Below, piece after piece: positions 38,564 through 56,810 of a stretch of DNA of 64,000 bases. The position numbers and the translations under genes are program-made. The notes beneath the pieces are model-generated. The model saw only the letters and a program-made list of their open reading frames with translations, did no database searches and was not told the DNA's origin. The DNA comes from Giesbergeria anulus (GTDB lineage Bacteria; Pseudomonadota; Gammaproteobacteria; Burkholderiales; Burkholderiaceae_C), in the NCBI RefSeq assembly GCF_900111115.1, contig NZ_FOGD01000007.1, positions 62,001 through 126,000 on the forward strand, in the 5' to 3' direction. Position 1 is the stretch's first letter, and each line of letters begins with the position of its first letter.

Positions 38564-38718
38564 GAAAAAACGCCCTAATAACTATCTCAGTCTTTCAGAG
38601 AACAGTCCCCAAGGGGAAGAACAGGCTTCGCGGTTTGCTTCAATGAAGCATGGAATCCAATCCAGAACACCCGTCCTGCAAACCACGAACAGCCCGACAA
38701 GCTGCTGTGGCACAGCCA

Positions 38719-40470: not shown

Positions 40471-41160
40471 AGCACATCCTTTTCAGCAGTGGGGTGCAAA
40501 TGATTGATCGAAAAAGCAATCTTTCGATTCTCCACGGGGCACCCACTTTTGACCAGCCTTTTTTGCCATAAGATTATGTGATTTATCTTAGGGCTATGAT
40601 TGAAAAAAAGATGGCCTAGACCACCAATCCCGCTCACACAACTAAATTTGATACTACTTTTCAACTAAATTTGATGCTATCGCCCAGCTCTCATGAGCGC
40701 AAATGAGCAGACCGGTACATCAAACTCCTCACACTACTCCGGCCCGCCAGCCAATGGAACTATCGAGCAAGTCGAGGTCTTTATAGACTTGCCCAATGCT
40801 CAGGCTTTGTTCTCGAACCATGACACACCAGTACCGTGCTTGCCAATGCAACTACCGCAGCAGGGGGCTCACCCCGCCTTCGTCGAATACGGCTGTAGTA
40901 CTAAACAAACATAGCACCATTTGCTAGTGTTTCGCCGAACTCGTCAAAGCCCCGGCTACGGTGCAGCGTGCGCAGCGACCCTTTTTCAGAGCCAGCTCCC
41001 TCGCGGTAGGCAGTGCCTCGAGAGGTGAGTGCCGTCCCACAACTGTCATGGTCAATATCGTATAATTTTTTCGGCACCTTATCGGTGGTGAGATCAGCAA
41101 AGGCAGAGGTTCTATCGCGGGCACAGTCTTGATTTGAGGCACATGGGGAGGGATTGAAGA
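40471..41160. other. Gene-poor stretch with direct repeats
   Basis: Aside from a transposase fragment (40729-40821) I see no supported gene. AACTAAATTTGAT is directly repeated at 40640 and 40663. The rest looks like degraded insertion-sequence and intergenic material. Confidence 0.5.
40729..40821 (-). pseudogene. Fragment of an IS3-type transposase OrfA
   Basis: The 30-aa frame MVREQSLSIGQVYKDLDLLD... resembles the N-terminal helix-turn-helix of IS3-family OrfA proteins, then loses similarity and stops. It is a remnant only. Confidence 0.35.
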
Positions 41161-42123
41161 ATGGGTGAGAGCAAGCGACGAAAAGAATCAGATCCGAGTT
41201 ATGGAACTCGGCCTAAAGGTGGGCGAGGCATAATGCTTCTTCCGGATCTTGTTGAAGAGAAGAATTCCAGTCCAAAGGTAACTGCAAAGGGGATAGAAGG
41301 CCCAGTAATAGCCATTCCCTCGATGTGGCGCCCAGAGCAATTGAGATTTGGATTGTGCTTTTGGGATCGCATTGCTTGGCCATCCATAAGCGTCTTGCCT
41401 AGCCATGGCAGCACTGACATGGATTTTCTGGAAAGTGAAGGAGTGCTGGTTCGGCCAGAAGCTAGTTTGGTGCCAAACCTAACATCGCCAGGAAGAGGTT
41501 TTGCCGATACTTATTTCAGGGCATATCAAGACTTGGAGAACAAGGAACCTGGTCGGTGGTGTTTGTCTGCATCCGCCGAGCACGACCTTAGGTCATTTCT
41601 AGGAGACCATATAGCGCCTGATAGAGGCATTACTGTATCCTTGCACCATGCCGTACCTATCCCAACACGCAATGTGGCGCTGCAGGATCTACTGGAATTC
41701 AAGCAAAAAAGGAATTCAGAACTGGAAGCACTGCGAAAGGAGCTTGACAGCTACAAACAACTGATTACCAGCGCCACAGATCGCGCAGAGGTCTTTGCGA
41801 CACAGCGAGATCGTATTGATGCCGCATGCGTGGACTTACTACGTGTGAGCCGTGAGCAGAGAATGCCTATCCATATCTCTGATATGTCATTGGAAATTGA
41901 TTTCAAAGGATCTGCCGCTTTAGCTGTAGCCGCCGCCGCCAGTGTCTTTTCCGACCACCTCAATCTTCCTGGGGTGGAGAAGTTTTTAGCCTCCGCGGGC
42001 ATGATCGCTTTTTCGAGCATAAAGTTTAAAGCCGGATTTGGGATAGGAGACAACAAAGCGAAACTACGGCAATCTCCCTTCCGCTATGTCCACTATCTGC
42101 ATAAAGAGCTAGATTGGCTCTGA
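41161..42123 (+). CDS. DUF6236-like hypothetical protein, 320 aa
   Basis: GGGAGGGATTGAAGA precedes the ATG. It starts MGESKRRKESDPSYG; residues 50-160 look folded (FGLCFWDRIAWPSISVL), with a helix-rich centre at about 175-215 (LEALRKELDSYKQLITSATD) and a hydrophobic Ala-rich stretch at 257-270. It resembles proteins annotated DUF6236 that are scattered in genomic islands. Function unknown; a defence-island setting is suggestive only. Confidence 0.6.
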   Translation: MGESKRRKESDPSYGTRPKGGRGIMLLPDLVEEKNSSPKVTAKGIEGPVIAIPSMWRPEQLRFGLCFWDRIAWPSISVLPSHGSTDMDFLESEGVLVRPEASLVPNLTSPGRGFADTYFRAYQDLENKEPGRWCLSASAEHDLRSFLGDHIAPDRGITVSLHHAVPIPTRNVALQDLLEFKQKRNSELEALRKELDSYKQLITSATDRAEVFATQRDRIDAACVDLLRVSREQRMPIHISDMSLEIDFKGSAALAVAAAASVFSDHLNLPGVEKFLASAGMIAFSSIKFKAGFGIGDNKAKLRQSPFRYVHYLHKELDWL

Positions 42124-42397
42124 AGCGATCAGAAGCACAATCACTTGACGAGAGATTAGCCGCCTGCCTCACTATCGTTGATAGGTATGTTTCGCTTTAG
42201 AGCGGCTAACCCAACCAAAAAAAAAGTAGGTTTTCGGCAGGGACTAGGCATAAAAATCAGACAGCACACCTAGTACGGCAAAGCAAAAAAAACGAACTAT
42301 CAATGGTCATGTTAGCCCATGGAATGGACGCCCCTCCTTTACTAGGGCACAGTGAGCGCTCTGTCACAGCTGTGGCGCAGCCCTCATTCACCACTGC

Positions 42398-43477
42398 TTG
42401 TTCAGCGTGCAGCGCCATATCCGGGGCAAGTGGGTCTGTCGCGCCTGCGAAACCATAGAACAAGCCCCCATCCCGGCGCACATCATTGACAAGGGCCTAG
42501 CCAGCACCGGGCTGCTGGCACAGGTGTTGGTGGCCAAGTACGCTGACCATGTGCCGCTGCATCGCCAACAGAGCATCTTTGCGCGCAGTGGAGTCGAACT
42601 GGCCCGCTCAACCTTAGCCCAATGGGTGGGCAGCTGCGGCGTGCAGTTGCAGCCCTTGGTCGATGCGCTTAAACAAGAACTGCTGCAAACTTCAGTGCTG
42701 CACGCCGATGAAACACCGGTGCAAATGCTCAACCCCGGTCAGGGCAAGACGCAACGCGCCTACCTGTGGGCCTACAGCAGCAATGTGCTGGGCGAGCTGC
42801 GCGCCGTGGTCTATGACTTCTGCCACTCACGTGCTGGACAGCATTCGTGTAACTTTCTGCAGGGCTGGTCGGGTGCGCTAGTATGCGACGACTATGTGGG
42901 CTACAAACAAATCTTTACGGGCTCCAAGGTGACAGAGCTGGGCTGCATGGCCTATGCACGGCGCAAATTTTTTGGCCTGCATGCAGCCAACAAAAGCCTG
43001 ATTGCTGGCTTTGCACTGGAGCAAATCGGCAAACTCTACGATATTGAACGCCAAGCCCAAGGGCTCAATGCCAAGCAACGCCTGGCACTGCGGCAACAAT
43101 ACTCACGCCCTATCTTGGAAGCGCTGCAGCAATGGATACAGCGCCAACGTCAACAGATACCCGACAGCTCGGCCACTGCCAAGGCCTTGGATTACAGCCT
43201 GCGCCGCTGGGCGGCATTGACGTGCTTTGCCGACAACGGCCACTGGCCTATCGACAACAACTGGGCGGAGAACCAGATGCGCCCGATTGCGCTGGGGCGT
43301 AAGAACTGGCTGTTTGCCGGTTCGCTGCGGGCATGCCAGCGGGCTGCAACCATCATGAGCTTAATTCAATCGGCCCGGCTCAACGGCCATGACCCTTACG
43401 CGTACTTGCGTGATGTCATGACACGCCTGCCCACGACCAAGCAGAGGGATATCGCCAGCCTATTACCCCACCACTGA
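42398..43477 (+). pseudogene. IS66-family transposase TnpC, 3' portion
   Basis: This frame encodes the IS66 TnpC catalytic region: HADETPVQML (first catalytic Asp), LVCDDYVGYK, and WPIDNNWAENQMRPIALGRK with the catalytic Glu, ending LLPHH. The N-terminal about 150 residues of a normal TnpC are missing; immediately upstream a compressed zinc-finger remnant (CHSCGAAL) is visible before a stop. It lies on the opposite strand to tnpA/tnpB of the adjacent IS66. Confidence 0.85.
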
Positions 43478-43527
43478 CAGCCCAGTGAATTTGCTACTAA
43501 CCCCTGAATTCGGACTCGGTCAAGGTT

Positions 43528-43547
43528 GGGGTTAGCTGGACACTTAC
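43528..43547. repeat. IS66 terminal inverted repeat
   Basis: GGGGTTAGCTGGACACTTAC is the right end of the + strand IS66 piece; read inward it starts GTAAGTGTCCAGCT and matches the end at 44601-44612 (GTAAGCGTCCAT). It abuts the truncated tnpC at 43548. Confidence 0.7.
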
Positions 43548-43803
43548 CCTGTAAGTCTGCGTCAATGCTTTCTTCGAGCTCGCGTTGTTCTTCGCCACTG
43601 CGGTGGTGGCGCTCACTTTGCAGGGCAAACTTCAACCGCTTGAGCAGCGCCATCTCATGCGTGAGACGCTCGATGAGTTGCTGCATCTGGCCCATCTGCT
43701 GCGACATCGTCACTACCAGCTCACGCAGCTGTGGTGCATCGAGCAACTCCAGATGGGCAGGCGTGTGCAGTCTCACGGTCATATTGGCGGGCAGTATAGC
43801 CAC
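43548..43803 (-). pseudogene. IS66 TnpC, 5' portion
   Basis: About 85 residues of the TnpC N-terminus remain (LRELVVTMSQQMGQMQQLIE, RLTHEMALLKRLKFALQSER), ending at the junction in DADLQ. The frame then reads into the other IS66 end. Confidence 0.75.
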
Positions 43804-43816
43804 GGCCAGCGTCTAT

Positions 43817-44152
43817 TTACACCAGCCGTATGGCACCACCCGGCTCCACACGCTGCCAAGGCAAACCCAATACCAGGGCCTCCAATTGTGGATGGCTAAG
43901 TGGTACCTGTGACCCTGCCTGCACATCTGCACAGACAAAGCGGCCTCGGTGCAAACGCCGCGCCGCCAACCACAGACCGATACCGTCATGCACCAGCACT
44001 TTGAGTCGTGTGTGGCTGCGGTTGGTAAAGACGTACGCATGGTGGGGCTGCGCCGCGCCAAAGACCGCCACCACCCGCGCCAGAGGGCTGTCGATACCTG
44101 AGCGCATATCCAAAGGCTGTGTCGCCAGCCATATTGCCTGCACCGGTATCAT
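43817..44152 (-). CDS. tnpB: IS66-family accessory protein TnpB
   Basis: The 111-aa product matches IS66 Orf2: IWLATQPLDMRSGIDSPLA, AYVFTNRSHTRLKVLVHDGI, GLWLAARRLHRGRF. Its ATG overlaps the tnpA stop by 4 nt (ATGA). TnpB is required for transposition in many IS66 elements; its activity is not known in detail. Intact here but stranded in a broken element. Confidence 0.88.
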   Translation of the reverse strand: MIPVQAIWLATQPLDMRSGIDSPLARVVAVFGAAQPHHAYVFTNRSHTRLKVLVHDGIGLWLAARRLHRGRFVCADVQAGSQVPLSHPQLEALVLGLPWQRVEPGGAIRLV

Positions 44153-44532
44153 GCTAGCAGCGCACGCAGCCAAGTCGCACACTCGGATGCCGCAGCCACC
44201 GGCCAGCGCAACTTGAGCACCGTCTTGCCCTGGTGCAGTTCGACCTCAATGTGTGACGAGGCCGCTGTGGTGGGGTCAGGGCTCTGTGCTGGCAGTGGCA
44301 GTGGTAAGGCGACAAAGTCCGTGCTACTGATGCGCTGTGCCGCCAGCGTGAGAGGGCTTTCTCGACGCCACTTGTGCACCAAGTTGGCATTCACTCCGCA
44401 GGCATGGGCAATGGCAGCCACCGATGCACCGGGCCGCTGGCATTCGGCCACGACCTGGGCCTTGAAGGTAGTGCTGTGACGTCGGCGTTGGATGGCCGGC
44501 GTGACAGGTGAGGTGAGAGAGTAAGTTTGCAT
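44149..44532 (-). CDS. tnpA: IS66-family TnpA (OrfA)
   Basis: The 127-aa protein contains a helix-turn-helix typical of IS66 TnpA (STTFKAQVVAECQRPGASVA, AIAHACGVNANLVHKWRRES). It likely binds the element ends. A perfect-arm inverted repeat (GGTGTCCAC / GTGGACACC, 44534-44560) just upstream may be its promoter/operator. Confidence 0.85.
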   Translation of the reverse strand: MQTYSLTSPVTPAIQRRRHSTTFKAQVVAECQRPGASVAAIAHACGVNANLVHKWRRESPLTLAAQRISSTDFVALPLPLPAQSPDPTTAASSHIEVELHQGKTVLKLRWPVAAASECATWLRALLA

Positions 44533-44600
44533 AGGTGTCCACTTGAAAATAGGTGGACACCATCGTCTCTTACCTCACACCAAAACGACAGATGACTTGG

Positions 44601-44612
44601 ATGGACGCTTAC
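44601..44612. repeat. IS66 left terminal repeat
   Basis: On the - strand it reads GTAAGCGTCCAT, related to the GTAAGTGTCCAG end at 43547. Its TAA provides the stop codon of the truncated gene at 44609. Confidence 0.65.
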
Positions 44613-44956
44613 AGTTCAGCAGCGATGACCGAGACCAGACGCGGGTTGAGCGCTCGAGCGCTAGCCAGAAAGAGAGCAACAGCGCTAGGTTGTCGACAGG
44701 CCTCCTTGACCCACCTCTGGAACTCACGGCTATCACGCTCCTCCGCCATCAGCTGTTCGACGCAGATAAGTACTACGACCGATCCGAAGACCTGCGCGAC
44801 TGACTTGATTGAAGTCTCGTCGTGAAGACCTAGAACGGCAGCTACGAGCTGGGCCTCGGTCTGCAATTCAAGGCCAGCCTGCTGGATGTCGGTGGCTCTT
44901 GCTTGCGTTCGGCGCCAGAACTCTGGTCTCTCTGTAAGATCTGGCCGAATGGCCAA
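44609..44956 (-). pseudogene. Gene fragment truncated by IS66
   Basis: A 115-codon frame (AGLELQTEAQLVAAVLGLHD, VVVLICVEQLMAEERDSREF) whose stop TAA lies in the IS66 terminal repeat, so the 3' end was removed by the insertion. Upstream the frame stays open another about 28 codons without a good start, so the 5' end is also doubtful. Family not recognised. It runs divergently from the conflict-system operon. Confidence 0.45.
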
Positions 44957-45167
44957 AATTGGACGAAACCAATTTGTCTCCGCTTTCAGATTCTGGGCGA
45001 GAAGGTTAGCGTCTGTGTACTGAGAGGTCGTCTAGCCATGGTGGCTGAAGCATAACGCTTGGTGACCCACCAGAACAAGTTGTGTTAGCCACTCTTAGTG
45101 TGGTGCGCCAGTGTTACAGTGCGTTAGCATTAAAGATTGCAAAGAAAAAAGTCAAGAAAGATTGTCG

Positions 45168-46460
45168 ATGTTGCAAGAATTTTTGATGAGGTTCCTCGAG
45201 ATCGGGGCAATTAACCTCAACGGCGATGACTCCAAACTGGAGAAGTTGCGCTCCACCGCCAAGGATCTGTCTGCTGAGCTAAGAACAGTGCCATCTAAGA
45301 CGCTCAGCTTCACGATGGTGGCCGCTGATCCATCGGTTCCGGCGGCTGATCCTGTCATAGAGGAAGCCATGGCGGCGCTTCGCCAGCGCTGGGAGACCGT
45401 AGCCAATGCGTTCTCGGGACGCCCGGTGAACGTTTTACGAGCCGTGCTGCTGGATGCAATTGTCCAGGCGGCACGCGAGGACGACGCTATCGCGGTCGCC
45501 TTCGTGAGCACGGCGCGCAATGCGTTGGCTCACGCTGAGACGGCCGACGAAGCTCCAATTTGGCACGATGCTGTATGCGAAATCGAGACCAAGGTCGATG
45601 CGCGTGCAGAGGCCGAGTGGGCAACCCCGGATATGATCTCTGTTAAGCCACTGCAGTACAAGGCACCGGACTTCACGATTGAAGAACAAGCAATTCCTGT
45701 TGTCGACCGAGTCGCACTGAAGACCAAGCTCCAAATACCATACCCCTCCCACCACCAAAACAACCCGCAAGGGTGGGTTCAAGAGTTCTCTGATCGGGTC
45801 AGTGCTGCCATAGGCGATGTAATCGACGAGTTCGCGAAGGGAATAGTTCCAGCGCCAATCGATTTCTCCACACCTTCATCCAATCTAGCAAAGGCTGTAA
45901 GCGCACACGTGGATAAGGCTCTGGCTAGTTTTAGCGGTGCTACAGCTGGCCTGCAGCGCCGCACCAATCTGCTGTGGTGGAAAGAAGCACTATATTCACC
46001 AAGCGCCCATCAGAGCTATCTTGAGATGCCCGTTTTTCAAGCTTCCGCGTTGATGGCGCTTGATCTTCATGAGCAAGTGCCAACGTTTTCGCCTGCAAGC
46101 GTTTCGGCGTTTCTGAAGGAAGCAATTCGCTGCTTGCCCACAGAGTCAGGGGGCGAAGGCAATGGTCGGCGCAACATCGCTGCGCTGGTTCGTGAGGCCA
46201 AAACGGCTGTATTCATGCAACCGTTCCGCGCCTTGGCTGGGCAGTACACGCCTGTGCCGGTTGGGCGCGGTCCTCTAATCTCCCTGATTGGGCATGGTCA
46301 CGATTTCGTGGCTACTGAACCTACATCCCTGCGAGCCCTAAGTGGGGTAGATGAATCGGCGATGATGACCCCTGATGAATGGGGAACCTTTTTGTTCCGT
46401 GAGCTTCAGGCTGCACGCGCTACGAGCGCCAACTCTGGTGCGCGAGCCAAGAAGAGGTAG
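45168..46460 (+). CDS. GTPase-associated system all-helical protein (GASH-like), 430 aa
   Basis: The start MLQEFLMRFLEIGAINLNGDD and predicted all-helical composition match the GASH proteins of GTPase-associated conflict systems described in comparative-genomics work. Its place as first gene of a tight operon with two GTPases, a GAP1-like protein and a caspase-like protease supports this. The GASH role is unknown; scaffold or sensor is inferred. ATG 45168 is chosen over GTG 45111 because family proteins start near this point; the Shine-Dalgarno (AGAAAG) is weak. The next gene starts 7 nt downstream. Confidence 0.75.
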   Translation: MLQEFLMRFLEIGAINLNGDDSKLEKLRSTAKDLSAELRTVPSKTLSFTMVAADPSVPAADPVIEEAMAALRQRWETVANAFSGRPVNVLRAVLLDAIVQAAREDDAIAVAFVSTARNALAHAETADEAPIWHDAVCEIETKVDARAEAEWATPDMISVKPLQYKAPDFTIEEQAIPVVDRVALKTKLQIPYPSHHQNNPQGWVQEFSDRVSAAIGDVIDEFAKGIVPAPIDFSTPSSNLAKAVSAHVDKALASFSGATAGLQRRTNLLWWKEALYSPSAHQSYLEMPVFQASALMALDLHEQVPTFSPASVSAFLKEAIRCLPTESGGEGNGRRNIAALVREAKTAVFMQPFRALAGQYTPVPVGRGPLISLIGHGHDFVATEPTSLRALSGVDESAMMTPDEWGTFLFRELQAARATSANSGARAKKR

Positions 46461-46467
46461 ATTGGCT

Positions 46468-47421
46468 ATGGACAAATGTCCTCACCCTGATTGTTTCGCT
46501 GATGACAACACCACCTGCACCCTTGGCCACCTTGAGCGGCGCCTGTGTCCAGAATGGAAGTGCATCGCTAATCCAACGAGTGACTCCAATTTTTCCTCCG
46601 ACAAAATGCTCCTGCCGTGGAGTGGCCTGGCGATGGGAGAGTCAGACCTTAATTTCGTCAGCGGACGAGTCAAACCCATAACCGTCGGCATCGTAGGGCC
46701 GGAAAGTGCTGGCAAGACGACCATTCTTGGCTCGTTCTATCTCCTGCTTGGGCGAGGCACCCTGACGACCGAAGACCACGCGTTCAGCAATTCATACACG
46801 CTGACAGGCTGGGAAGCGGTAGCGGCTTCCATGCGATGGAAGCCGGGCCCACTGCCACCTTGCTTTCCGCCACACACACCAAGCGGCAAAGCTCGCGCGC
46901 CAGGCATGTTGCACCTCGCATTTCGCCGCAAGGACGGGACACTGCGCGATCTGTTGTTTGCCGATGCGCCGGGCGAATGGTTCAGGAAATGGGCCATCAA
47001 CCAAGAAGCACCGGACGCAGAAGGCGCCCGCTGGATCGCTCGGTACGCTGACGTGACGCTTCTGATCGCTGACCGACAAGCGCTTTCTGGCTCAAAGATG
47101 GGAACGGCTCGGAACGACTTCCAGATCTTAGCGCAGCGTGCCATCGCCGAAGCCAGCGGTCGCCCTTTGGCATTGGTTTGGACAAAGGGCGACGTCGAAG
47201 TAGCTTCAGCCATGGAAACACAAATTCGAAGAGCTGTCGCGTCCATGTCGCCCCCCATCCCGGAGTTCACCGTAAGTGTGGCTTCGCGTAAAGAGGCGGA
47301 TACCACAGATGGCTTTCGAAGACTGTTCGATTGGATCGTCACAACCAAGCGCCATGGCGTGGAATTGCCCACGATGCAGACGGCTGGACAAGATCCCCTT
47401 TTCCGTTTCGGCAGAAGATAG
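46468..47421 (+). CDS. TRAFAC-type GTPase with N-terminal zinc motif, 317 aa
   Basis: The N-terminus has C4-P-H-P-D-C9...C17...C27, a zinc-ribbon-like cluster. The GTPase domain has G1 GPESAGKTT (77-85), G3 DAPG in LFADAPGEW and G4 TKGD in LVWTKGDVE. This fits the double-GTPase component of GTPase-associated systems. It is the second gene of the operon and ends 3 nt before the next GTPase. Probably a GTP-dependent switch that signals to GAP1 and the protease. Confidence 0.8.
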   Translation: MDKCPHPDCFADDNTTCTLGHLERRLCPEWKCIANPTSDSNFSSDKMLLPWSGLAMGESDLNFVSGRVKPITVGIVGPESAGKTTILGSFYLLLGRGTLTTEDHAFSNSYTLTGWEAVAASMRWKPGPLPPCFPPHTPSGKARAPGMLHLAFRRKDGTLRDLLFADAPGEWFRKWAINQEAPDAEGARWIARYADVTLLIADRQALSGSKMGTARNDFQILAQRAIAEASGRPLALVWTKGDVEVASAMETQIRRAVASMSPPIPEFTVSVASRKEADTTDGFRRLFDWIVTTKRHGVELPTMQTAGQDPLFRFGRR

Positions 47422-47424
47422 CCC

Positions 47425-48261
47425 ATGACTGAGCAACACACCATCCTGCTGATCGGCGAGTCCAACGTTGGCAAAACCCACTATGGAGCCCAGTTCCTCA
47501 AGCGGCTCATGGCTAAGGCATGTGCTCTGAAGATGCACGGCGCACCAACCAACCTGGAAGCATTTACCACTGCACTCGGCTGTCTGACCGAAGGCATGTC
47601 GACTGACCACACACCGGCCAGCAGCTACGTGGAGAGCGTCTGGCCGATTCAAGACGACTCGGGTCGCTTGGCTGAGTTGGTCTGGCCGGACTACGGCGGC
47701 GAACAGGTTCGAAATCTGGTGACTGACCGCCGTATTCCCGCAGCTTGGCGCGAACGCGTTTTGAATGCCACGGATTGGGTTGTCCTCATCCGACTGCACT
47801 CGCTGCGATCTGAGGAAGATCTGTTCTCGCGACCGCTGCAATCCTTCGCTACCTCTAAAACCCAGAGCGAGCCCGCAGCATTCGAGCCATCAGACCAAGC
47901 TCGGATGATTGAACTCTTCCAGATGCTGCTCTATCTGGCACAGACCTCCCTGGAAAGCCCGCTTAGCAAGCCGCGTTTGACTATCCTGCTCAGCTGCTGG
48001 GATGAGATTCAAACAACCGAATTGCCCCCGGATCTGCTGGCGGCTCGGTTGCCAATGTTGTGGTCGTTCGTGCGTAGCAACTGGATTTCGCCAAGCGTCA
48101 TCGGTCTTTCTGCTTTGGAAAAGGCTCTGAGTAAGACCGTGCCTGATGTGGACTACGCGATGCGAGGCCCAGAAGACTTCGGCTACGTGATCCTGCCCAA
48201 CGGAGAACGAAGCAACGACATCACGCTGCCCATTCAGCAGTTGATGACTGGGGCCGCTTGA
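47425..48261 (+). CDS. Second GTPase of the conflict system, 278 aa
   Basis: G1 is GESNVGKT (11-18), G3 is PDYGG in LVWPDYGGEQV, and SCWDE near residue 190 stands at the G4 position, lacking the usual N/TKxD. The pairing of two different GTPases side by side is characteristic of GTPase-associated systems. They may form a heterodimer; that is inference. GAP1 starts one base after its stop. Confidence 0.8.
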   Translation: MTEQHTILLIGESNVGKTHYGAQFLKRLMAKACALKMHGAPTNLEAFTTALGCLTEGMSTDHTPASSYVESVWPIQDDSGRLAELVWPDYGGEQVRNLVTDRRIPAAWRERVLNATDWVVLIRLHSLRSEEDLFSRPLQSFATSKTQSEPAAFEPSDQARMIELFQMLLYLAQTSLESPLSKPRLTILLSCWDEIQTTELPPDLLAARLPMLWSFVRSNWISPSVIGLSALEKALSKTVPDVDYAMRGPEDFGYVILPNGERSNDITLPIQQLMTGAA

Positions 48262-48262
48262 G

Positions 48263-50749
48263 ATGCGTGTCGAACAAGCGGTGTATGGTGAGGTCGAGGG
48301 CCGAGGACACGGCCTAAGAAGTTCGAGCACTACGTCGTCGTTCGCCGCAAGTATTGCTCCCCAGCTGGATCTTCCGGACGGAGTGCCACTAGGTGTCCAG
48401 ACATGGTCGCCTTTCGTTCGTGGCTTCCCTTGTGACGGTTACTACGTTTTGGCTCGAACGTTCCTAGACTCGGGCTCATCGCGTGGGGGTATGGTGCTGA
48501 CTCACGCCCTGATCGTCAATTTGGAAGGGATCTGTCAAGTCGAAGACCTGACCGTATTGTTTACACAATTGGCAGCTTCAGCAAAGGCCATTCCCGCCAG
48601 GCTATCCACCCTAGAAATCGAAACTTCTCCAGGGACTGCCGAGCTACCGATTGACCTGATTGGTGCGGCCAATGCCCTAGCTGACCAGCAGGGGCCAGCG
48701 ATTCGGCTGAGCGTGGCTGGGTTTGAAAGCTTGGTGACTGCGCTTTGGCGCAACCTGTGGCCTTCCATGCGAAAAGCATTCGCTTTCCGACTGAGCTTTG
48801 GTCCCCAAGACCTTGAGGCCCAGCCTGGGTTGGCGATTGTTTGCACCCCCGAACAGCTTCGGGCGCGCTGGGCCAAGTATCGCGTTGTTAATCAAGACGA
48901 TCAAGGTGCACAGTCCCCGTCTGCTGCAGTGCTGTGTGGTCAGCAGAGTGCAAAGCCCTTTCTGGACTTGGCTAGGGAGCTTGGCCTCGAGGCCACTATC
49001 ATCAAGGATCTGAAAAAACTCGAAAGACTGCATCGCCTCGTCACAAGTGTTGATGACTTTGACGATCTACTCAAAGCCATACGCTTGGTGGACGGCTTTT
49101 CCAATCGGGCCGAGCTTGGCGCAGAGTTAAAGGATCGACTCATTCAGCGCATCGCAGCTCAGGTTCCGGCGGCCAGTTGCAGGCAGCTCATGCCGATGCG
49201 AAATCTGGATCTTCCGAGCTTTGCAAGCACGAAACCACTTTGGTCAGCTGTTGAGCATCGAGTCAGCAAACTCGACTTCGCCCAGGCAGAGGATACAGAC
49301 CTCGTTGCGCTATTGGAAGCGTCTGCCGATAGTAACCTTGCTCTCCCTGCGTGGCGCACTGCGGTCATGGGTGGGTTGTCCACGGCTGGGCATCAAAAAG
49401 AATCTGGTCTCTGGAGGGCCATCTGGCGATGGTCCGAGCTAAGTCGTGCTGCTTTCTCCGCCATCGTGGCAGTTCTGCCACCTGGCGTAGGAACTGAACA
49501 ACTCTTGGTACAAGCCGCCCCCAGAAAACTCGATACTGCAAAGGTAGTTGCAGTTCCTTCGCTTTTGTTAAAAAAGGGATGGCTGACGGCTCACGGTGCA
49601 GCCCTGGCTGCAATGATGTTTCCCCGCGAAGCAGTAGAGCAACAGCTTAAAATGGACAGGCAACTGAACCACACCGCTGGGCTGTGGGCAGCACTTCGGC
49701 ACGCTACCCCGGACGACATGTTGACGGTGACGCTGGATCTGAAGGATCAACGTCTGGTGGAGATGTGCGGTGATCTGGCGGTTACTCATCCACAGATGCT
49801 GTCTGGCATCCGCTGTACAGACCTCACTGAACAAAAAGTGTGGGCCTACGCCATCGGAAAGAACAACTCGTTGTGGAATGCGCCTAGCAACCCGATGGAA
49901 ACTCGAAACAGCGTACTCGCTCATCTCGGAAAAGGATCAGGCGCTTTTGCTGGCCTTGTTGAAGCACTTGCTCGGACGCCACTCGCCGATTTGACTGAAA
50001 TTCCAGATCGAGCGCGACTTTGGTCGCATCTGCCTGCTTCGCACTGCGACTCGTACTTGCGCGCAACTGCCAGTGGATGGCTGACTGCCGCAGTCAACAG
50101 CAGCGCTGTGAACACACCAGAGCCAGAGCTTGAACACGCAGTGCTGGAGAGCTCCGCTCTCCAGTCAGCACTTCAAGAGTCGTCAACTCCGCTGAGGACG
50201 CGTCTAGCCATCGTGAGCAGCCTACCATTATTCGATGAGGCGGTGTTTGTCGGCTTTTTGATGCACCTACTGCGGCAGAGTCGATCGTTGTCTGACGCTG
50301 ATGCCGTTCAACTAGGAACGCTTGTGGCGAGTCGGCGCTGGGAATCCGCGATCCAGTGCCTCTGCGACCAACTCGCTAACCGCCGCTACGACCTAGTGCC
50401 CGCCCTGCAGCAATGCGCAAGTTTTCTGAGTATCTACCAACGATGGAAGCTTGAAATCTCAAAGCCAAGCACTGAGGAGAAATGGCGAGCTTTCGAAGAA
50501 ACTGCATGTGAGCTATACCCTAACGGCCCGGACTACGATCAGCTCTGGTCTCGAGCCGGGGGTAAAAACTCTGATCTTCCCGGAGCGTTGCAGAACGGCG
50601 CGACTCGTTGGCACTCCGCGATGAGGTTGCTTCGCTATGGCAGCCGTCCGCCTGTGCGTGACCTACTGCGTGTGATGTGTAACGACTACAGCGGTAACGA
50701 GAAGCTACGCCTTTTTTCGAGAGACACCGACATCGTCGGATGGCGCTGA
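48263..50749 (+). CDS. GAP1-like protein with C-terminal effector-associated domain, 828 aa
   Basis: The N-terminal 200 residues (VEQAVYGEVEGRGHGLRSSS, GYYVLARTFLDSG, GGMVLTHALIV) match the GAP1-N domain of GTPase-associated systems. A long helical middle follows. Residues about 746-815 (ELYPNGPDYDQLWSRAGG, TRWHSAMRLLRYG, VRDLLRVMCNDYSGN) are an EAD1-type domain, nearly the same as the C-terminus of the adjacent caspase-like protein. This gives a direct path for homotypic recruitment of the protease. The gene is translationally close to the upstream GTPase. Confidence 0.82.
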   Translation: MRVEQAVYGEVEGRGHGLRSSSTTSSFAASIAPQLDLPDGVPLGVQTWSPFVRGFPCDGYYVLARTFLDSGSSRGGMVLTHALIVNLEGICQVEDLTVLFTQLAASAKAIPARLSTLEIETSPGTAELPIDLIGAANALADQQGPAIRLSVAGFESLVTALWRNLWPSMRKAFAFRLSFGPQDLEAQPGLAIVCTPEQLRARWAKYRVVNQDDQGAQSPSAAVLCGQQSAKPFLDLARELGLEATIIKDLKKLERLHRLVTSVDDFDDLLKAIRLVDGFSNRAELGAELKDRLIQRIAAQVPAASCRQLMPMRNLDLPSFASTKPLWSAVEHRVSKLDFAQAEDTDLVALLEASADSNLALPAWRTAVMGGLSTAGHQKESGLWRAIWRWSELSRAAFSAIVAVLPPGVGTEQLLVQAAPRKLDTAKVVAVPSLLLKKGWLTAHGAALAAMMFPREAVEQQLKMDRQLNHTAGLWAALRHATPDDMLTVTLDLKDQRLVEMCGDLAVTHPQMLSGIRCTDLTEQKVWAYAIGKNNSLWNAPSNPMETRNSVLAHLGKGSGAFAGLVEALARTPLADLTEIPDRARLWSHLPASHCDSYLRATASGWLTAAVNSSAVNTPEPELEHAVLESSALQSALQESSTPLRTRLAIVSSLPLFDEAVFVGFLMHLLRQSRSLSDADAVQLGTLVASRRWESAIQCLCDQLANRRYDLVPALQQCASFLSIYQRWKLEISKPSTEEKWRAFEETACELYPNGPDYDQLWSRAGGKNSDLPGALQNGATRWHSAMRLLRYGSRPPVRDLLRVMCNDYSGNEKLRLFSRDTDIVGWR

Positions 50750-50774
50750 TGACCAATCGATAACCTATTGACCC

Positions 50775-51881
50775 ATGAATCCCCCTCGCTATCCACAAGG
50801 CCACGCACTGCTCATCGGTGTGGCGAACTATCAGCAAGTCACGAACTTGCCAGCAGCCATCTTGAACGATGCTCAAGATGTTGCTGCCACCCTGACATCG
50901 CCTAGCTACTGCGGCTATGAATCCAAGAACGTGGTTACGCTGCTGGACAGTGAAGCCACGCGCGCCGCAGTTCTGAATAGCCTCGCTGAGTTGGCTACTC
51001 GCGCTGGCACTGATGACACCGCCTGCGTTTTCTTCTCTGGCCACGGCGCAGTCGTCGGCCCGCATGGCGCTGAAGACAGCGTTTTGGTAACGGTAGATAC
51101 CAACCTAGCCGACATAGAGAAAACGTCCATCAGCTCTGATGAGTTCGCCCAAGCACTCTCTCAGATCAAAGCCAAGCGCGTTCTGGTTTTCATCGATGCT
51201 TGCCACGCTGGCGGTGCGGCGATCTCGAAGACATTGACGGATGGCAAAGGCCACGAGTTTAAGTCGGGCTATTCGTCGAATACTTTTGCCAAACTGGCTA
51301 CTGGCAGCGGCCGTGCACTGATGGCGTCATGCCGTGCCAGCGAGGTTTCTACAGTTTTTTCACGAGCACGAAACAGCGTATTCACCACGGCACTACTTGC
51401 CGGTCTTAAAGGTGCTGCAGACAAGTCTAATAGCGGCTTCATAAAGCTTTTCGACTTGTTCAACTACGTCGCTGAAGAAGTCCCGAAACAGATCCCCGAC
51501 GGCCAACATCCAATCTTCAAAGCAGACAATCTTGAAGGGAATTTCGCAATCGCCTTGAGCCAAGGTGGCAAGAAGTCCGCTGCTAGCAGTTTGATCGAGT
51601 CATCAGCATCACCGGAAGATCTATGGGTAACTCTTGAGTTGGCGCTCATTGAGCTGTACCCGTTTGGTCCGCGAGACCAGGAGATTTGGAGCCGGGCCGG
51701 CGGCGATTTGTCTCGCCTCGAGTTTCATTCAACTGGTCGGGCAGCCTGGCATTCTGCACTTCGGAAACTCAAGCAGGGTGGCGGTGGACGCTCCATTAAT
51801 TTCCTAACCCTTCTCAGAATAGCACTTGAGGACTTTTCTAATCATCCAACGTTGGCAGCAATGAACAGCCCCGGGAATTGA
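50775..51881 (+). CDS. Caspase-like (C14) protease with effector-associated domain, 368 aa
   Basis: The fold starts HALLIGVANYQQ; the catalytic His is in SGHG (H90) and Cys in IDACHAGG (C143), both intact. After a linker, residues about 282-358 form an EAD1-type domain matching the GAP1 end (LYPFGPRDQEIWSRAGGDLS, WHSALRKLKQGG). By analogy with other bacterial caspase-like effectors, activation would cleave host proteins and stop growth of an infected cell. The activation route through EAD1 contact with GAP1 is inferred from sequence. Confidence 0.9.
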   Translation: MNPPRYPQGHALLIGVANYQQVTNLPAAILNDAQDVAATLTSPSYCGYESKNVVTLLDSEATRAAVLNSLAELATRAGTDDTACVFFSGHGAVVGPHGAEDSVLVTVDTNLADIEKTSISSDEFAQALSQIKAKRVLVFIDACHAGGAAISKTLTDGKGHEFKSGYSSNTFAKLATGSGRALMASCRASEVSTVFSRARNSVFTTALLAGLKGAADKSNSGFIKLFDLFNYVAEEVPKQIPDGQHPIFKADNLEGNFAIALSQGGKKSAASSLIESSASPEDLWVTLELALIELYPFGPRDQEIWSRAGGDLSRLEFHSTGRAAWHSALRKLKQGGGGRSINFLTLLRIALEDFSNHPTLAAMNSPGN

Positions 51882-51911
51882 AGAGGCACCAACGTCTGAG
51901 AAGATGGAGCC

Positions 51912-52154
51912 ATGTCAAAGTCAAAAAAGTTCTCACAAAAAGTGCGCGAACATACAGTTCGCATGGTGCAGGAGCACCGAGCAGATTACCCATCCCTGTG
52001 GGCCACCATTCAATCGATTGCACTCAAGATTGGCTGTGTGCCGAACACCCTGCACGAGTGGGTCAAGAAGGCAGATGTCAATAGCGGACAGCGCTCCGGT
52101 ATCATCACGTCTGATACCCATCACATTAATGACCACCATTTGACGTATGCGTGA
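51912..52154 (+). pseudogene. Truncated IS3-family transposase OrfA
   Basis: [20 protein letters not shown]...[20 protein letters not shown]...[10 protein letters not shown] is the N-terminal two thirds of an IS3-family OrfA. After NSGQRSG the similarity ends and unrelated residues lead to a stop. orfB is absent. Confidence 0.8.
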
Positions 52155-52181
52155 AAAACACGCTGTACAAGAAAGTACACC

Positions 52182-53462
52182 ATGAAAGTCACGCGCCTAG
52201 AGTTATGGAACTTCCGAGGCATTAAGCACCTTACCGTGGACTTCACCCAGCGCACCACCGTTTTTGTGGGCGTGAACGGTGTGGGTAAATCCACCGTGCT
52301 GGATGCGTTAGCGATTGCACTTTCGCAGCTGACCTGCCGATTGCATGAAAGATCCCAAGCACCACGCATGATTGACCTCGACGATATTCGCTTGGGCGCT
52401 GAGTCTGCACAGATTGCAATTACCGTAGCAATCAACAGTGAATCGGTCAGATGGGTGGTTGCCCGCAGCATCAAAGACCCTAAGGAGCAGCCTGGATCAC
52501 AGAGAGATCTGACACAACTGGAGGCGTTCTGCGCGCCCCTGCTTGCCGCCTATGAAGACGAAAAACTAGACGGCCTGCCACTAGCGGTTTATTACGACGT
52601 TCACCGTGCTGTTTTGGATGTGCCCTTGCGAGTGCGCGAAAAACTTGAGCACTCCGCTAGCGAGGTTTACCAAGATGCACTGGATCATGGCGGTGCAGAT
52701 TTCAAGCGATTTTTCATCTGGTTTCGCGATTTTGAAGATATAGAAAACGAGCTACGGCTTGACGAACCAGATTTCAGGTATCAAGGGCTAGAAGCGACAC
52801 GCCAAGCGGTTCAAACCTTTGCAGGGTTTGAAAACTTGCGCATTCGCCGCAAACCCACCATGCGAATGACTGTCACTAAAGCTGAAAAAGAACTCAACGT
52901 TTTGCAGCTGTCAGACGGTGAACGCAACATGCTGGCGTTGGTAGGTGACATTGCCCGCCGCTTGAGCGTGCTGAATTTCTACAGCCTTAATAAATTAAAT
53001 GAAGGTGCTGGCGTGGTGCTGATCGACGAAATCGACTTGCACCTCCACCCCCGCTGGCAGCGGGAAGTGGTAGCCAAGCTAGAAGCCACATTCCCGCATT
53101 GCCAGTTCATTGTGTCCACGCACTCGCCGCAGGTGGTGGGGGAATTGCGCCCAGAGTCCGTGATGATTCTGCGCGATGGTGTGCTGACCCAAGCACCCCG
53201 CTCACTCGGCCTGAGCAGCAGTGAAGTGCTGGAAGAGTTGATGGAAGGTACCTCACGCAATCATATTTTCCAGAAGAAAATCCGCGAAGTGGAACGTGCA
53301 TTGGAAGATGAACAATATGCCCAAGCCCGTGAAATGCTCGAGACTCTCCGTGCTAATTTTGGAGAATTACCCGAAGTTTTAAGACTCGGTGAATCACTGG
53401 AATGGTTTGATCCAGTGAATAGCATTCAAAAATTTCCTGCTGATCCTGGAGAGCGTACGTGA
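52182..53462 (+). CDS. ptuA: PtuA-like AAA ATPase of a Septu-type defence pair
   Basis: The 426-aa protein has Walker A GVNGVGKST (30-38), signature LSDGERNMLAL, Walker B VVLIDEIDLHLHP and the H-loop FIVSTHSPQV: an OLD/SMC-like ATPase. The last about 60 residues are helical. It overlaps an HNH nuclease gene by 4 nt (GTGA). This ATPase-HNH pair is the Septu (PtuAB) organisation, also found as the effector of some retrons, but no reverse transcriptase or msr-msd is seen here. Two small hairpins (52149-52163, 52164-52178) precede the ATG. Confidence 0.85.
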   Translation: MKVTRLELWNFRGIKHLTVDFTQRTTVFVGVNGVGKSTVLDALAIALSQLTCRLHERSQAPRMIDLDDIRLGAESAQIAITVAINSESVRWVVARSIKDPKEQPGSQRDLTQLEAFCAPLLAAYEDEKLDGLPLAVYYDVHRAVLDVPLRVREKLEHSASEVYQDALDHGGADFKRFFIWFRDFEDIENELRLDEPDFRYQGLEATRQAVQTFAGFENLRIRRKPTMRMTVTKAEKELNVLQLSDGERNMLALVGDIARRLSVLNFYSLNKLNEGAGVVLIDEIDLHLHPRWQREVVAKLEATFPHCQFIVSTHSPQVVGELRPESVMILRDGVLTQAPRSLGLSSSEVLEELMEGTSRNHIFQKKIREVERALEDEQYAQAREMLETLRANFGELPEVLRLGESLEWFDPVNSIQKFPADPGERT

Positions 53463-54142
53463 AAACTATCACCAAAAGCGCAGAATGCCCTGCCTTGCGT
53501 GAATGGAAACGCGAGAATTCTAATTCTCCACAAAATATCCACTATAACTATTTGGGTGCGCCACAGCGTGGCCCCATGCTGGATGCGATGGTGCGCGAGC
53601 AAGGCGGCATTTGTGCCTACACGATGCAATCGATTCGCTGCGTCGATACTGTTTGGCAAGCGCATATTGAACATATTTTTCCCAGGTCACTCCACCCTGC
53701 TCAATCCGTGGACTGGGGCAACATGGTGGCCTGCATTCCCAAGCCTAACGAACATGCCGACTACGGCGCCAAACTGAAGGATGCATACGACCCCGCCACC
53801 AGCCCTTTTGTCAACCCGACCCGCAACGTTGCCAGCCATTTCCGTTTCCATGAAAACGGGGAATTGCAAGGGCTGACCTCGGAGGGCGAAGCAACAGTGA
53901 GCCCTCAGGTCTTACACCTGAACCACCCTCATCTCTTGAACGATAGGAAAGGCAAGATCAAAGGGGCCTTGGATCGAAAACCATCGGCTGTGCAAGCCCG
54001 CCAGCGCGCCCAACAACTGCGCGAGCGAGACACCCGTGGCATGTTTGAGCCGTACTGCGAAGCCCTAGCTCAGGTGCTGGAAGCCTATGCCACCCGGCTT
54101 GAAAACAAAGCCCAGCGCATGGCAGGAGTCCGACGCCCCTGA
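53459..54142 (+). CDS. ptuB: PtuB-like HNH endonuclease
   Basis: GTG start overlapping the ptuA stop. The 227-aa protein has the HNH core QAHIEHIFPRSLHP (67-80), then DWGNMVACIP with the central Asn at 88, preceded by ICAYTMQSI. This is the family annotated as retron/Septu HNH endonuclease. With PtuA it should form a complex that cuts nucleic acid upon phage infection. Confidence 0.87.
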   Translation: MKTITKSAECPALREWKRENSNSPQNIHYNYLGAPQRGPMLDAMVREQGGICAYTMQSIRCVDTVWQAHIEHIFPRSLHPAQSVDWGNMVACIPKPNEHADYGAKLKDAYDPATSPFVNPTRNVASHFRFHENGELQGLTSEGEATVSPQVLHLNHPHLLNDRKGKIKGALDRKPSAVQARQRAQQLRERDTRGMFEPYCEALAQVLEAYATRLENKAQRMAGVRRP

Positions 54143-54159
54143 GGGTACCCAAGAGGAGT

Positions 54160-54303
54160 ATGACTCATGGCCACCACGAGCTGGAGGTTGATCTTTTCGC
54201 CTGTGGTGGCGGCGCCAGCACTGGCATCGAGCAGGGGGCGTCTCAGAAAACGTACATGAACACCCGCTGCTTGCCACGGTCTCAATTCATGACAGCAACT
54301 TGA
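54160..54303 (+). pseudogene. 5' stub of a cytosine methyltransferase-like gene
   Basis: AAGAGGAGT precedes the ATG. The product opens HELEVDLFACGGGASTGIEQ, the AdoMet-binding motif I of a phage-type cytosine methyltransferase, then diverges after about 28 residues (ASQKTYMNTRCL) and stops. The break probably marks a junction at the right side of the island. Confidence 0.6.
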
Positions 54304-54367
54304 AGGTAAAGATTGCACCCGTACATTCGGACTTCTAGTGTGGCGATGCCACTGTCCCTGATGGGAT

Positions 54368-54640
54368 TTGCTGGCTGGCACCTTAATCGGAAAAAAGCAC
54401 TCGGGGTGCATCGTTTCCTGCGGGCTTTGCCAACTGGCCTTTTACAACATCCCAACCCAAGGCGGAGTAACACGCGAAGAAGCGTTGCGCGAGTTCGCCC
54501 GCCGCAATACCCCATCAGGCAGCAATCGCGTCAAGTTCAACGAAGCCGAGTTTGAGCGCATGAAAAATCGTGTCGAAGGCGTGTGCTACCAAGGCGAATA
54601 TTGTGCCGAACCAGCCGACAAAAGTCGAGCTACCAAGTAA
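54368..54640 (+). CDS. Hypothetical Cys-containing protein, 90 aa, possibly 5' truncated
   Basis: The frame (IVSCGLCQLAFYNIPTQGGV, EALREFARRNTPSGSNRVKF) looks coding, with a C-x2-C and a later C-x4-C pair. Only a TTG start is available and there is no ribosome-binding site, so the 5' end may have been lost at the island junction near 54.3 kb. Confidence 0.45.
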   Translation: MLAGTLIGKKHSGCIVSCGLCQLAFYNIPTQGGVTREEALREFARRNTPSGSNRVKFNEAEFERMKNRVEGVCYQGEYCAEPADKSRATK

Positions 54641-54689
54641 GACAACCGCCCTCCGGGGCGCTTGCGACATCCCAGTCACCAGTAGCGAC

Positions 54690-54711
54690 GACCGGCCAAA
54701 TTTGGCCGGTG
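54690..54711. repeat. Dispersed palindrome, copy 13
   Basis: Core intact, last outer base G. It is the first copy after a 16.3-kb gap and lies between convergent genes. Confidence 0.93.
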
Positions 54712-54721
54712 CCCACAAGGC

Positions 54722-55465
54722 TCAAGCGGTGGCCCAGCGAGGCCCAGAATCTTTGCCACCAGCCTTCTTGCGCGTCGAAATTTCTGCCTGCACATCCCGC
54801 CAGCGACCCGCCTTCGATTCCCAATCGCGCCGAGCGCGCAGGTACTCCAGCGCAGCAGGGACGTTTTTTAGCACATAGCCCGCGAGTTCTTCGCTGGGTT
54901 CGCCTACCTGCGGTGGGAGTGCCTCATCCCACCCATCGAAGACAGGCCACGGCACTAGCAAATGTCCACCACTGTTGTGCTGCACCCGTACCCAGCCAGA
55001 ACCATCTTGGAGTAGGATGTACCAGTTGGAAGACAATGGTTTTTGCCAAGGCCAAGGAGATTCCGCTACAGTCACTGTCGATGGCGACCGCTGCACGGCC
55101 AACGGCACCGCTGGAGGTGGTGGCAGTACGCGACTTTGCTCATCCTGTTGCTGTTGAACTTTCTGCTCTTGTGCAAATCGAGCAATTAGGGCCGCCGTGT
55201 TCTGCAAAAGCAATTCCCGTTCGTCAGCGGTGAGCATCTTTCCGTCACCACCGTGACCAAAATTAGCAGTCCCAAGCGGTTCTTTGCCTTGATATTTCTT
55301 AGCAAAACAAGTTGATCCAAGAATTGATATTTTTCCGCCATCTTCAACGACGTGAATTCTCCGATAAACGTAATGTTTGCATCCGGGATAACCACATTTG
55401 ACCTGTTCTTTCTTCGATTCAAAACAAACCACGGCCAGTAATTTTGCCGAATTTTCTTGAGTCAT
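54722..55465 (-). CDS. Hypothetical protein with Cys motif and Pro-rich linker, 247 aa
   Basis: AAAGGATTTTT precedes ATG 55465; a longer frame to 55495 lacks one. Residues about 20-55 (CGYPGCKHYVYRRI, GSTCFAKKY) form a probable zinc site. A helical segment, a Gln/Pro-rich linker (100-130) and a C-terminal domain with SSNWYILLQDGSGWVRVQHN follow. Family unknown. It diverges from the 55483 gene with only 17 nt between starts. Confidence 0.65.
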   Translation of the reverse strand: MTQENSAKLLAVVCFESKKEQVKCGYPGCKHYVYRRIHVVEDGGKISILGSTCFAKKYQGKEPLGTANFGHGGDGKMLTADERELLLQNTAALIARFAQEQKVQQQQDEQSRVLPPPPAVPLAVQRSPSTVTVAESPWPWQKPLSSNWYILLQDGSGWVRVQHNSGGHLLVPWPVFDGWDEALPPQVGEPSEELAGYVLKNVPAALEYLRARRDWESKAGRWRDVQAEISTRKKAGGKDSGPRWATA

Positions 55466-55482
55466 AAAAATCCTTTCTCCAA

Positions 55483-56070
55483 ATGTCAACCACAAACCCT
55501 AAAATTACTACACCACTAAGCCACTTCGAGAAGCGATTGTCGCTGATTGCGCGATTCATTTCGAGAGAAGGCCATGCCAACATCCCGCTGGAGCAAAAAG
55601 AAGATGGTCAGCCCATAGGCTACTGGTGCAGCAACTGGCGCTTTCGCATTGAGACCGATTTCGACACTATTCCCACTGAGCAGATTGCAGCGCTGCGCCG
55701 GGCTGGCGTGTTTAATGATGGCGTTCCTTGCCAGAAAGTCGTGCCACCAGCACCCGCGTTGCAGCCGCCATTGGCACCCACACCAAAACCCGCCCTGACG
55801 CCTGCGCCAAAATCTGCACCACGAGCAGTCAGCGTGCAAGTGCCTCAAGCAAGGCCCAAGCTACTACAGGTGCCACGCGCAAAGCAAGCCGCAGAAGATC
55901 ATGCCTTTCGCATTCCGACCGAATGGATGCAGCCTTCCCAGCCGCAGACGACGCAGCCAGAAGTTTGGCTTCTCCCAGTGGGCAGCTTGCGCCAAACCAA
56001 CCACAGCTCTAGCGCATCACCAGCCAAGATAGCGAAGAAGCGCCGCTGGCACGAATCGTCTGTCCGATAG
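55483..56070 (+). CDS. Hypothetical protein with helicase-associated-like start, 195 aa
   Basis: Residues about 12-75 (LIARFISREGHANIPLEQKE, GYWCSNWRFRIETDF) resemble the small helicase-associated domain (F-x-x-x-x-G-H-x-x-V/I-P, then G-x-W). The rest is a Pro/Ala/Lys-rich low-complexity tail. Function unknown. Confidence 0.55.
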   Translation: MSTTNPKITTPLSHFEKRLSLIARFISREGHANIPLEQKEDGQPIGYWCSNWRFRIETDFDTIPTEQIAALRRAGVFNDGVPCQKVVPPAPALQPPLAPTPKPALTPAPKSAPRAVSVQVPQARPKLLQVPRAKQAAEDHAFRIPTEWMQPSQPQTTQPEVWLLPVGSLRQTNHSSSASPAKIAKKRRWHESSVR

Positions 56071-56071
56071 C

Positions 56072-56093
56072 GACCGGCCCAACTGGGCCGCTC
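56072..56093. repeat. Degenerate palindrome copy
   Basis: GACCGGCCC-AAC-TGGGCCGCTC departs from the consensus but keeps pairing (CGGCCCA/TGGGCCG) through changes on both arms. It lies 1 nt after the stop at 56070, the usual position. Confidence 0.55.
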
Positions 56094-56252
56094 CGCCAAA
56101 AGCCTTGGTGCTGGCTGACGAGGCTACCGTGCAAAAAAATCAAAAATAAGTACAACATTCATAGCCAAACCAGATGCATCAGCGTGGTGAAATAAATGAC
56201 TGGAATACGCAAGCAGCCAACCATTTGCCGAAACCCAAGGACTACAAGCTAG

Positions 56253-56318
56253 GTTGTTAGCCACGTTGTTGGCCAAGTAATTGTGCAAAAAATTCCCAAA
56301 ATTGGTAACATTTGGTAA
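56253..56318 (+). promoter_or_regulatory. Two pairs of direct repeats upstream of 56376
   Basis: GTTGTTAGCCA (56253) and GTTGTTGGCCA (56265) repeat at 12-bp spacing; TTGGTAA repeats at 56302 and 56312 (10 bp). Such phased repeats suggest a regulator binding region. No other content is seen in 56100-56370. Confidence 0.3.
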
Positions 56319-56375
56319 GAAATTGACGAGATTTCTGTGCTGCAATAGTTCATTCTCACGCCCATAGGCACTTTG

Positions 56376-56732: not shown

Positions 56733-56810
56733 ATTGGTTTGCGTGAAATATATCAAAAACGCACGACCTTTCAAATTTGAAAATCTGGAAAAATAAGTCA
56801 TCCTTGGGGT

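Follow-up and report, generated by a model that had tools for sequence, protein, structure and literature searches.

The 64,000-nucleotide stretch of Giesbergeria anulus DNA analysed here (hereafter, the window; contig NZ_FOGD01000007.1, positions 62,001 to 126,000) carries, at positions 45168-51881 of the forward (+) strand, an operon of five intact open reading frames (ORFs) with intergenic gaps of 7, 3, 1 and 25 nt, reproducing the coordinates and spacing of a tight five-gene unit proposed in a first-pass annotation made from the sequence alone. The first gene (45168..46460, 430 aa, with an upstream in-frame GTG at 45111 as a possible longer start) encodes a helical GASH protein (PF19994, E = 2.3e-105, 353.5 bits against a cut-off of 27). 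It is followed by the genes for DO-GTPase2 (46468..47421, 317 aa; PF19993, E = 6.6e-69, 232.5 bits against 27), DO-GTPase1 (47425..48261, 278 aa; PF19975, E = 7.5e-81, 271.8 bits against 27), the GAP1 scaffold, which consists of a GAP1-N1 domain, a helical solenoid and a C-terminal EAD1 adaptor (48263..50749, 828 aa; PF20012, E = 1.9e-27, 96 bits against 27), and a caspase-like cysteine protease of the C14 type (50775..51881, 368 aa; PF00656 (Peptidase_C14), E = 6e-24, 85.5 bits against 21.4), which likewise ends in EAD1. The two adaptors, both matching PF19955 (cut-off 24.2 bits), occupy 50471..50725 (aa 737-821 of GAP1; E = 1.5e-10, 41.8 bits) and 51630..51863 (aa 286-363 of the caspase; E = 2.2e-6, 28.5 bits). 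All five proteins score above the curated Pfam cut-off for the family assigned to each, and this five-family assignment, as predicted from sequence profiles, is beyond chance. Given these Pfam families, we rejected the possibility that any of the five proteins is a housekeeping GTPase or protease.

The motifs of the caspase, SGHG (with H90) and DACHAG (with C143), are both present. DO-GTPase2 contains the P-loop GPESAGKT, the G3 motif DAPGE and TKGD, and its counterparts in DO-GTPase1 are GESNVGKT, DYGGE and SCWD, with the Walker B glutamate present in both proteins. Ahead of the P-loop, the N-terminus of DO-GTPase2 carries five cysteines in a zinc-ribbon-like arrangement, for which the Pfam search returned no zinc-ribbon match. 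In each EAD1, the sequence WSRAGG is followed by a pair of charged residues, K768/D771 in GAP1 and D311/R314 in the caspase. The description of two distinct GTPases with G1 and G3 motifs, an 828-aa GAP1-like protein and a protease with intact motifs in the first-pass annotation is thus borne out, although the C-terminal EAD1 of both GAP1 and the caspase escaped it, as did a Septu-like gene pair downstream. The EAD1 pair is the part of the operon that is most informative for its mechanism.

The AlphaFold2 (AF2) model of GASH (mean pLDDT 88.6) is helical, with only a few strand segments of two residues each, in agreement with the all-helical first protein originally described. That of GAP1, predicted with high confidence (mean pLDDT 91.7, pTM 0.66), begins with a mixed domain, continues as a long helical solenoid and ends in the helices of EAD1. 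Comparison with the PDB yielded no fold match for GASH at E ≤ 0.001 and, for GAP1, 589 matches at E ≤ 10, none of them at E ≤ 0.001; the 50 listed for GAP1 are weak and largely solenoid proteins. Nor did sequence profiles lead to a convincing relative of solved structure (best E 0.13 and 0.21). The succession of strands and helices along residues 1-102 of GAP1 brings to mind the longin or roadblock platforms of GTPases, a resemblance offered here as a bare thought.

Systems of the GAP1-N1 type, composed of GAP1, GASH and two DO-GTPases, one of them with a zinc ribbon, were defined computationally, and their role in immunity or conflict was presented as a prediction (Kaur et al., 2020, eLife; PMC7159879). 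By its domain content, the operon is a putative GAP1-N1-type GTPase-centric conflict system with a caspase effector, that is, a member of an already predicted family, and the Pfam matches and Kaur et al. (2020) agree with the original filing of the locus as a GTPase-associated predicted conflict system combining GASH, GAP1-N, double GTPases and a caspase. A search of the open-access literature, outside which most subscription papers and preprints lie, found no experimental study of the family.

For comparison, we assembled 89 loci, namely, the best 80 of 99 found when genome contigs were scanned with a GTPase2 alignment, five plasmid loci, three further genome loci (one of them from the genome of G. 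anulus itself) and the window. The loci were labelled with profiles built for this analysis, and the set is biased towards relatives of the query; effector classes were assigned by Pfam on representatives and by similarity for the remaining loci. Caspase-EAD1 is the most common effector (56 loci), followed by phosphorylase-EAD1 (18), phosphorylase fused to GAP1 (5) and phosphoesterase of the GAAD type (3; GAAD was identified by Pfam in L013, and the other two loci were grouped with it by similarity). Phosphoesterase-EAD1, TIR/SEFIR-EAD1, trypsin-EAD1, STAND-like-EAD1 and a CHAT domain fused to GAP1 were each seen once, and one effector is unknown. Locus L009, in which a caspase is annotated in the record and was lost during ORF picking, stands outside the 56 caspase loci.

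The five-gene neighbourhood is conserved, with the order GASH, GTPase2, GTPase1, GAP1 and caspase found on one strand in 51 of the 56 caspase loci; 203 of the 204 gaps in these ordered loci measure at most 60 nt (maximum 870 nt). Among the five exceptions, L032, L062 and L065 lack one GTPase label through ORF picking, and L011 and L027 have split genes. The protease histidine and cysteine are retained in all 56 loci, in each of which the caspase gene lies 3′ of GAP1; genes for other EAD1 effectors are divided between the 3′ (11) and 5′ (11) sides. The P-loop is kept in 85/85 GTPase2 and 83/85 GTPase1 sequences, and at least four cysteines precede it in all 85 GTPase2 ORFs, some of which have upstream extensions. 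Since simple patterns for G3 missed 3/85 GTPase2 and 14/85 GTPase1 sequences, and those for G4 missed 23/85 and 28/85, respectively, we do not claim conservation of these motifs for all loci. When 995 flanking ORFs, each 90 aa or longer, were compared all against all, no general sixth gene emerged, and a co-encoded substrate or additional component was therefore rejected as a general feature; the two largest families of flanking ORFs, present in 6 loci each, are transposase-like and resolvase-like by eye.

Several individual loci deviate from this layout. A family of same-strand ORFs is found 184-329 nt upstream of GASH in L040, L042, L045 and L058, and in L062 a second caspase-domain protein of 801 aa (15304-17709, +) directly follows the usual caspase. 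L083 encodes, upstream of GASH and in the effector place, a 2155-aa AAA/STAND-like protein (2173-8640, +) with an EAD1 that was recognized by the analysis-built profile and falls below the Pfam cut-off, and in L084 the CHAT (caspase-like) domain is fused to the GAP1-N1 protein (4981-7773, +), with no EAD1 detected. The operon of L011, on an Enterobacter kobei IncHI2A plasmid, looks decayed, with a GTPase1 frame devoid of the P-loop and GAP1 in two pieces (11363-14560, +).

According to Kaur et al. (2020), effectors of GAP1-N1 systems, caspases among them, are either fused to GAP1 or coupled to it via EAD1 or GAAD. The distribution of EAD1 in our set follows these alternatives: the domain is present on GAP1 in 77 of the 78 loci with a separate EAD1 effector, in none of the 6 loci in which GAP1 is fused to its effector (5 phosphorylase, 1 CHAT) and in none of the 3 loci of the phosphoesterase-GAAD type. 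These six direct fusions and three phosphoesterase loci account for all 9 loci with EAD1 on neither protein. One locus, L086, the GAP1 of which reads in two ORFs, has EAD1 on the effector alone, and two have it on GAP1 alone, namely, L009, with its lost caspase, and L085, in which GASH lies at a contig edge. Direct fusion and EAD1 are mutually exclusive in this set, and EAD1 therefore fits the role of a substitute for a covalent link; judged by these occurrence patterns, it appears to behave as a replaceable tether, and the EAD1s of GAP1 and the caspase in the window are probably a physical link between the two proteins.

EADs encoded by adjacent genes are stated in the same study to tend to be each other's closest relatives (Kaur et al., 2020). 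Among 154 EAD1 domains, however, the nearest neighbour is the domain's own partner in 3 cases. In an EAD1 tree built from 82 alignment columns, with 74 of the 149 inner branches poorly supported, the 56 caspase-type pairs account for 2 side changes and the 21 other pairs for 4, and a second tree includes one clade (support 0.835) consisting of 55 GAP1-side domains and not a single effector-side one. Cognate domains share 37.7% identity compared to 36.7% for shuffled pairs (p = 0.002, relatedness uncontrolled), and identity within a side amounts to 46% for GAP1 and 54% for the caspase. Hence, in the caspase lineage, the EAD1s of GAP1 and of the effector are, to judge from these trees and identities, distinct lineages and not closest relatives. 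Concerted evolution of the pairs is unsupported, given the rarity of nearest partners and the separate lineages of the two sides, and residual co-evolution beyond the core is weak, with partial correlations of 0.10-0.19. A single clean split of all 154 domains by side was rejected as well, the best split misplacing 22 of them.

A scan of the 85 alignment columns identified two, positions 30 and 33, at which the majority charge is opposite between the two sides. At position 30, K/R is found in 79% of GAP1-side domains and D/E in 96% of caspase-side domains; at position 33, the respective values are 86% for D/E and 75% for K/R. In pairwise terms, the 56 caspase pairs carry opposite charges in 42 cases and the same charge in 2 at position 30, and in 38 and 0 cases, respectively, at position 33. 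These positions lie 1 and 4 residues past the shared WxRAGG motif, and anchoring on this motif without an alignment gave opposite charges in 41/55 and 37/55 pairs, with one pair unanchored. The opposition also holds among 26 representatives with less than 50% GAP1 identity (18 opposite and 2 same at position 30; 15 and 0 at position 33), the remaining pairs being uncharged on one or both sides. These patterns raise the possibility that EAD1 in the caspase lineage is a polarised plug and socket and not a symmetric homotypic adaptor. In the first and fourth places after the motif (+1 and +4), the GAP1 form would have K/R and D, and the caspase form D and R, respectively. The two forms would have been fixed early in the lineage and passed on together in at least three phyla, and recruitment would be directional. 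We put this forward tentatively, as a proposal somewhat more apt to fail than to hold.

Several observations weigh against a polarised pair. The caspase loci share descent, each EAD1 also carries opposite charges internally at i and i+3, and in the non-caspase pairs (n = 21) position 30 carries opposite charges in 7 and the same charge in 9, which led us to reject a general charge pattern. Furthermore, where one side departs from the pattern, there is no visible matching change on the other. The same data can be read as a mixed homopolymer in which EAD1s assemble without preference and those of GAP1 and the caspase are interchangeable, a possibility compatible with EAD1-mediated recruitment as such and at odds only with polarity. 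Consistent with it, the core LYP, GP, WxRAGG, G and W is common to both sides, the charges at i and i+3, being opposite within each domain, could be intramolecular, the non-caspase pairs are off the pattern and cognate pairs have co-evolved little beyond the core. The separation of the two sides into lineages in the caspase-type pairs and the persistence of the charge opposition among the divergent representatives speak against it, and we regard free interchangeability as rather unlikely. The logic of a polarised EAD1 pair would resemble that of the CARD pairs of opposite charge in animal apoptosomes. If the proposal is true, bacteria arm caspases via charge-polarised adaptor pairs, a logic otherwise tied to animal cell death; the EAD1 analysis narrows like-with-like effector recruitment to a claim on two named residue positions.

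Taken as a whole, the operon fairly probably encodes a mobile immune module, directed against mobile elements, in which a GTP switch leads to the recruitment of a caspase-like protease through EAD1 and to its activation by proximity. GASH, the two DO-GTPases and GAP1 would make up an invariant core for sensing and switching, in which the nucleotide state of the GTPase pair would alter GAP1; the C-terminal EAD1 of GAP1 would then capture the C-terminal EAD1 of the caspase, and the gathering of caspases would render the H90/C143 protease active. The active protease might cut cellular or invader proteins, stopping the infected cell. Some points weigh against this scheme: the relative order of switching and recruitment is a guess; PADLOC gave no match for the four core proteins and a generic match only for the caspase (E ≤ 0.01), which is also the sole operon protein recognised by either PADLOC or NCBIfam at that threshold; and Kaur et al. 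(2020) report no association of this GAP1-N1 subtype with a multicellular habit.

The caspase might instead be a signalling protease, recruited via EAD1 to cut a partner such as GAP1, GASH or an effector whose gene lies elsewhere. Two points favour such a role: for some DO-GTPase systems, deployment has been proposed to include a step of proteolytic processing (Kaur et al., 2020), and in Canu systems a caspase activates a nuclease (PMC12799240). In our loci, however, no general pro-effector gene accompanies the caspase, which sits, 3′ of GAP1 and with its own EAD1, where phosphorylase or trypsin effectors sit in related loci, and we deem the signalling role quite improbable. The operon copy in the window is complete, compact (6.7 kb) and apparently intact, and could be cloned as one piece.

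In the GTPase2 tree, the caspase label changes 2 times over 85 rows, whereas bacterial class changes at least 14 times among 49 classified caspase loci; by phylum, the 50 labelled caspase loci belong to Pseudomonadota (44), Actinomycetota (5) and Deinococcota (1). Because the label is stable while the class shifts, the five-gene unit seems, as far as this tree can tell, to spread widely in one piece and to retain its effector. This contrasts with the general picture of fast-changing effectors. The components are sparsely distributed, with GASH found in 3/60 genomes and GAP1-N1 in 3/369 genomes of the class, including, in both cases, that of G. anulus, which harbours a second GAP1-N1 system, L013 (contig C21, 5336-11705, −), with a calcineurin-like phosphoesterase-GAAD effector. 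No close DNA relatives were found in the plasmids or E. coli searched, and two scans of viral contigs returned no relative. GASH was found in 8 plasmid records, 5 of them called conjugative, and relatives of GTPase2 in 19, of which 15 are called conjugative and only 8 span 80% or more of the query. In addition, a Leptospira phage record (KF114878.1; L106, 3790-11241) contains a complete operon of GASH, DO-GTPase2, DO-GTPase1, GAP1-EAD1 and phosphorylase beside an integrase; Pfam does not list an EAD1 for this phosphorylase, the C-terminus of which matched the EAD1 of the window caspase. Open-access literature searched for this phage by name gave only unrelated papers among the matches listed.

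The plasmid relatives and the phage-borne phosphorylase-type copy, together with a coupling-protein gene and, by eye, ParA/ParB-like genes in the window, also fit an operon that serves a mobile element, by keeping out rival plasmids or phages or through addiction, and not host anti-phage immunity, possibly by the same molecular mechanism. Caspase-type loci are, however, also found on long contigs (L023, 1.39 Mb), and a phosphorylase-type locus, L092, is on a record titled chromosome. Moreover, carriage by mobile elements is common among immune systems. A role in the service of the element itself appears rather doubtful to us.

The surroundings of the operon in the window have a plasmid-like look, or that of an integrative and conjugative element, because of their transposase, integrase, ParA/ParB-like and coupling-protein genes. 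Immediately downstream, outside the operon, a Septu PtuA-like ATPase (52182..53462, +; PADLOC PtuA, E = 3.9e-135) and a PtuB-like HNH protein (53459..54142, +; PADLOC PtuB, E = 1.8e-38) are encoded, scoring below the cut-offs of the NCBIfam models for PtuA (retron Ec78; 280.6 against 500) and PtuB (58.8 against 150). The stretch between this pair and the operon holds a short remnant resembling a transposase (51912-52154; HTH_Tnp_1, score under the cut-off). On the upstream side there are a tyrosine integrase and a piece of an IS66 transposase, together with, as seen by eye in the translations, further IS66 pieces and the ParA/ParB-like genes. The IS66 pieces at 42398-44532 (one identified by Pfam, the others by eye) have conflicting orientations, which suggests that an element in this region, ahead of the operon, has been rearranged. 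Farther away, a TraD/TraG-like conjugation coupling protein (25225-28047, −) is interrupted in frame by a LAGLIDADG-domain stretch, located by eye within the P-loop, probably an intein in this conjugation ATPase. An Rfam search of positions 38000-58000 gave no match, and a promoter scan, with 0 found against 2.7 expected, was uninformative. The chain from infection sensing through protease activation to abortive infection, advanced in the first-pass annotation, is an inference in line with what was predicted in 2020 and with a setting among mobile-element and Septu-like genes.

Comparison with known systems delimits the affiliation of the operon. The caspase domain is related to that of EACC1-associated caspases (NCBIfam NF047832) and, at 114.8 bits, scores below the curated cut-off of 140, so that filing it there was rejected; it further differs by its C-terminal EAD1, and none of the five operon proteins has a Pfam match to EACC1. 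With Canu, the operon shares a caspase-family protease within a multi-gene locus. However, the Canu caspase has an Ig-like fold and is accompanied by a nuclease gene (PMC12799240), whereas the window caspase has no Ig-like Pfam match and the operon has a GTPase core instead of a nuclease gene; these differences, along with the lack of a general sixth gene, led us to reject an assignment to Canu. L013, the second system of the same genome, is alike in GASH, DO-GTPase2, DO-GTPase1 and GAP1-N1 and differs in its phosphoesterase-GAAD effector, with no EAD1 found. The closest correspondence is to the GAP1-N1 systems as characterized by Kaur et al. (2020; PMC7159879), with which the operon shares GAP1-N1, GASH, two DO-GTPases, one with an N-terminal cysteine motif, a caspase effector and EAD1 on both GAP1 and the effector, without a difference in gene content. 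The rarity of nearest-partner EAD1s (3/154) departs from the tendency stated there for EADs, which is not part of the definition of these systems. The operon is thus a sound member of an already predicted family, to which the charge detail of EAD1 adds a new and testable element.

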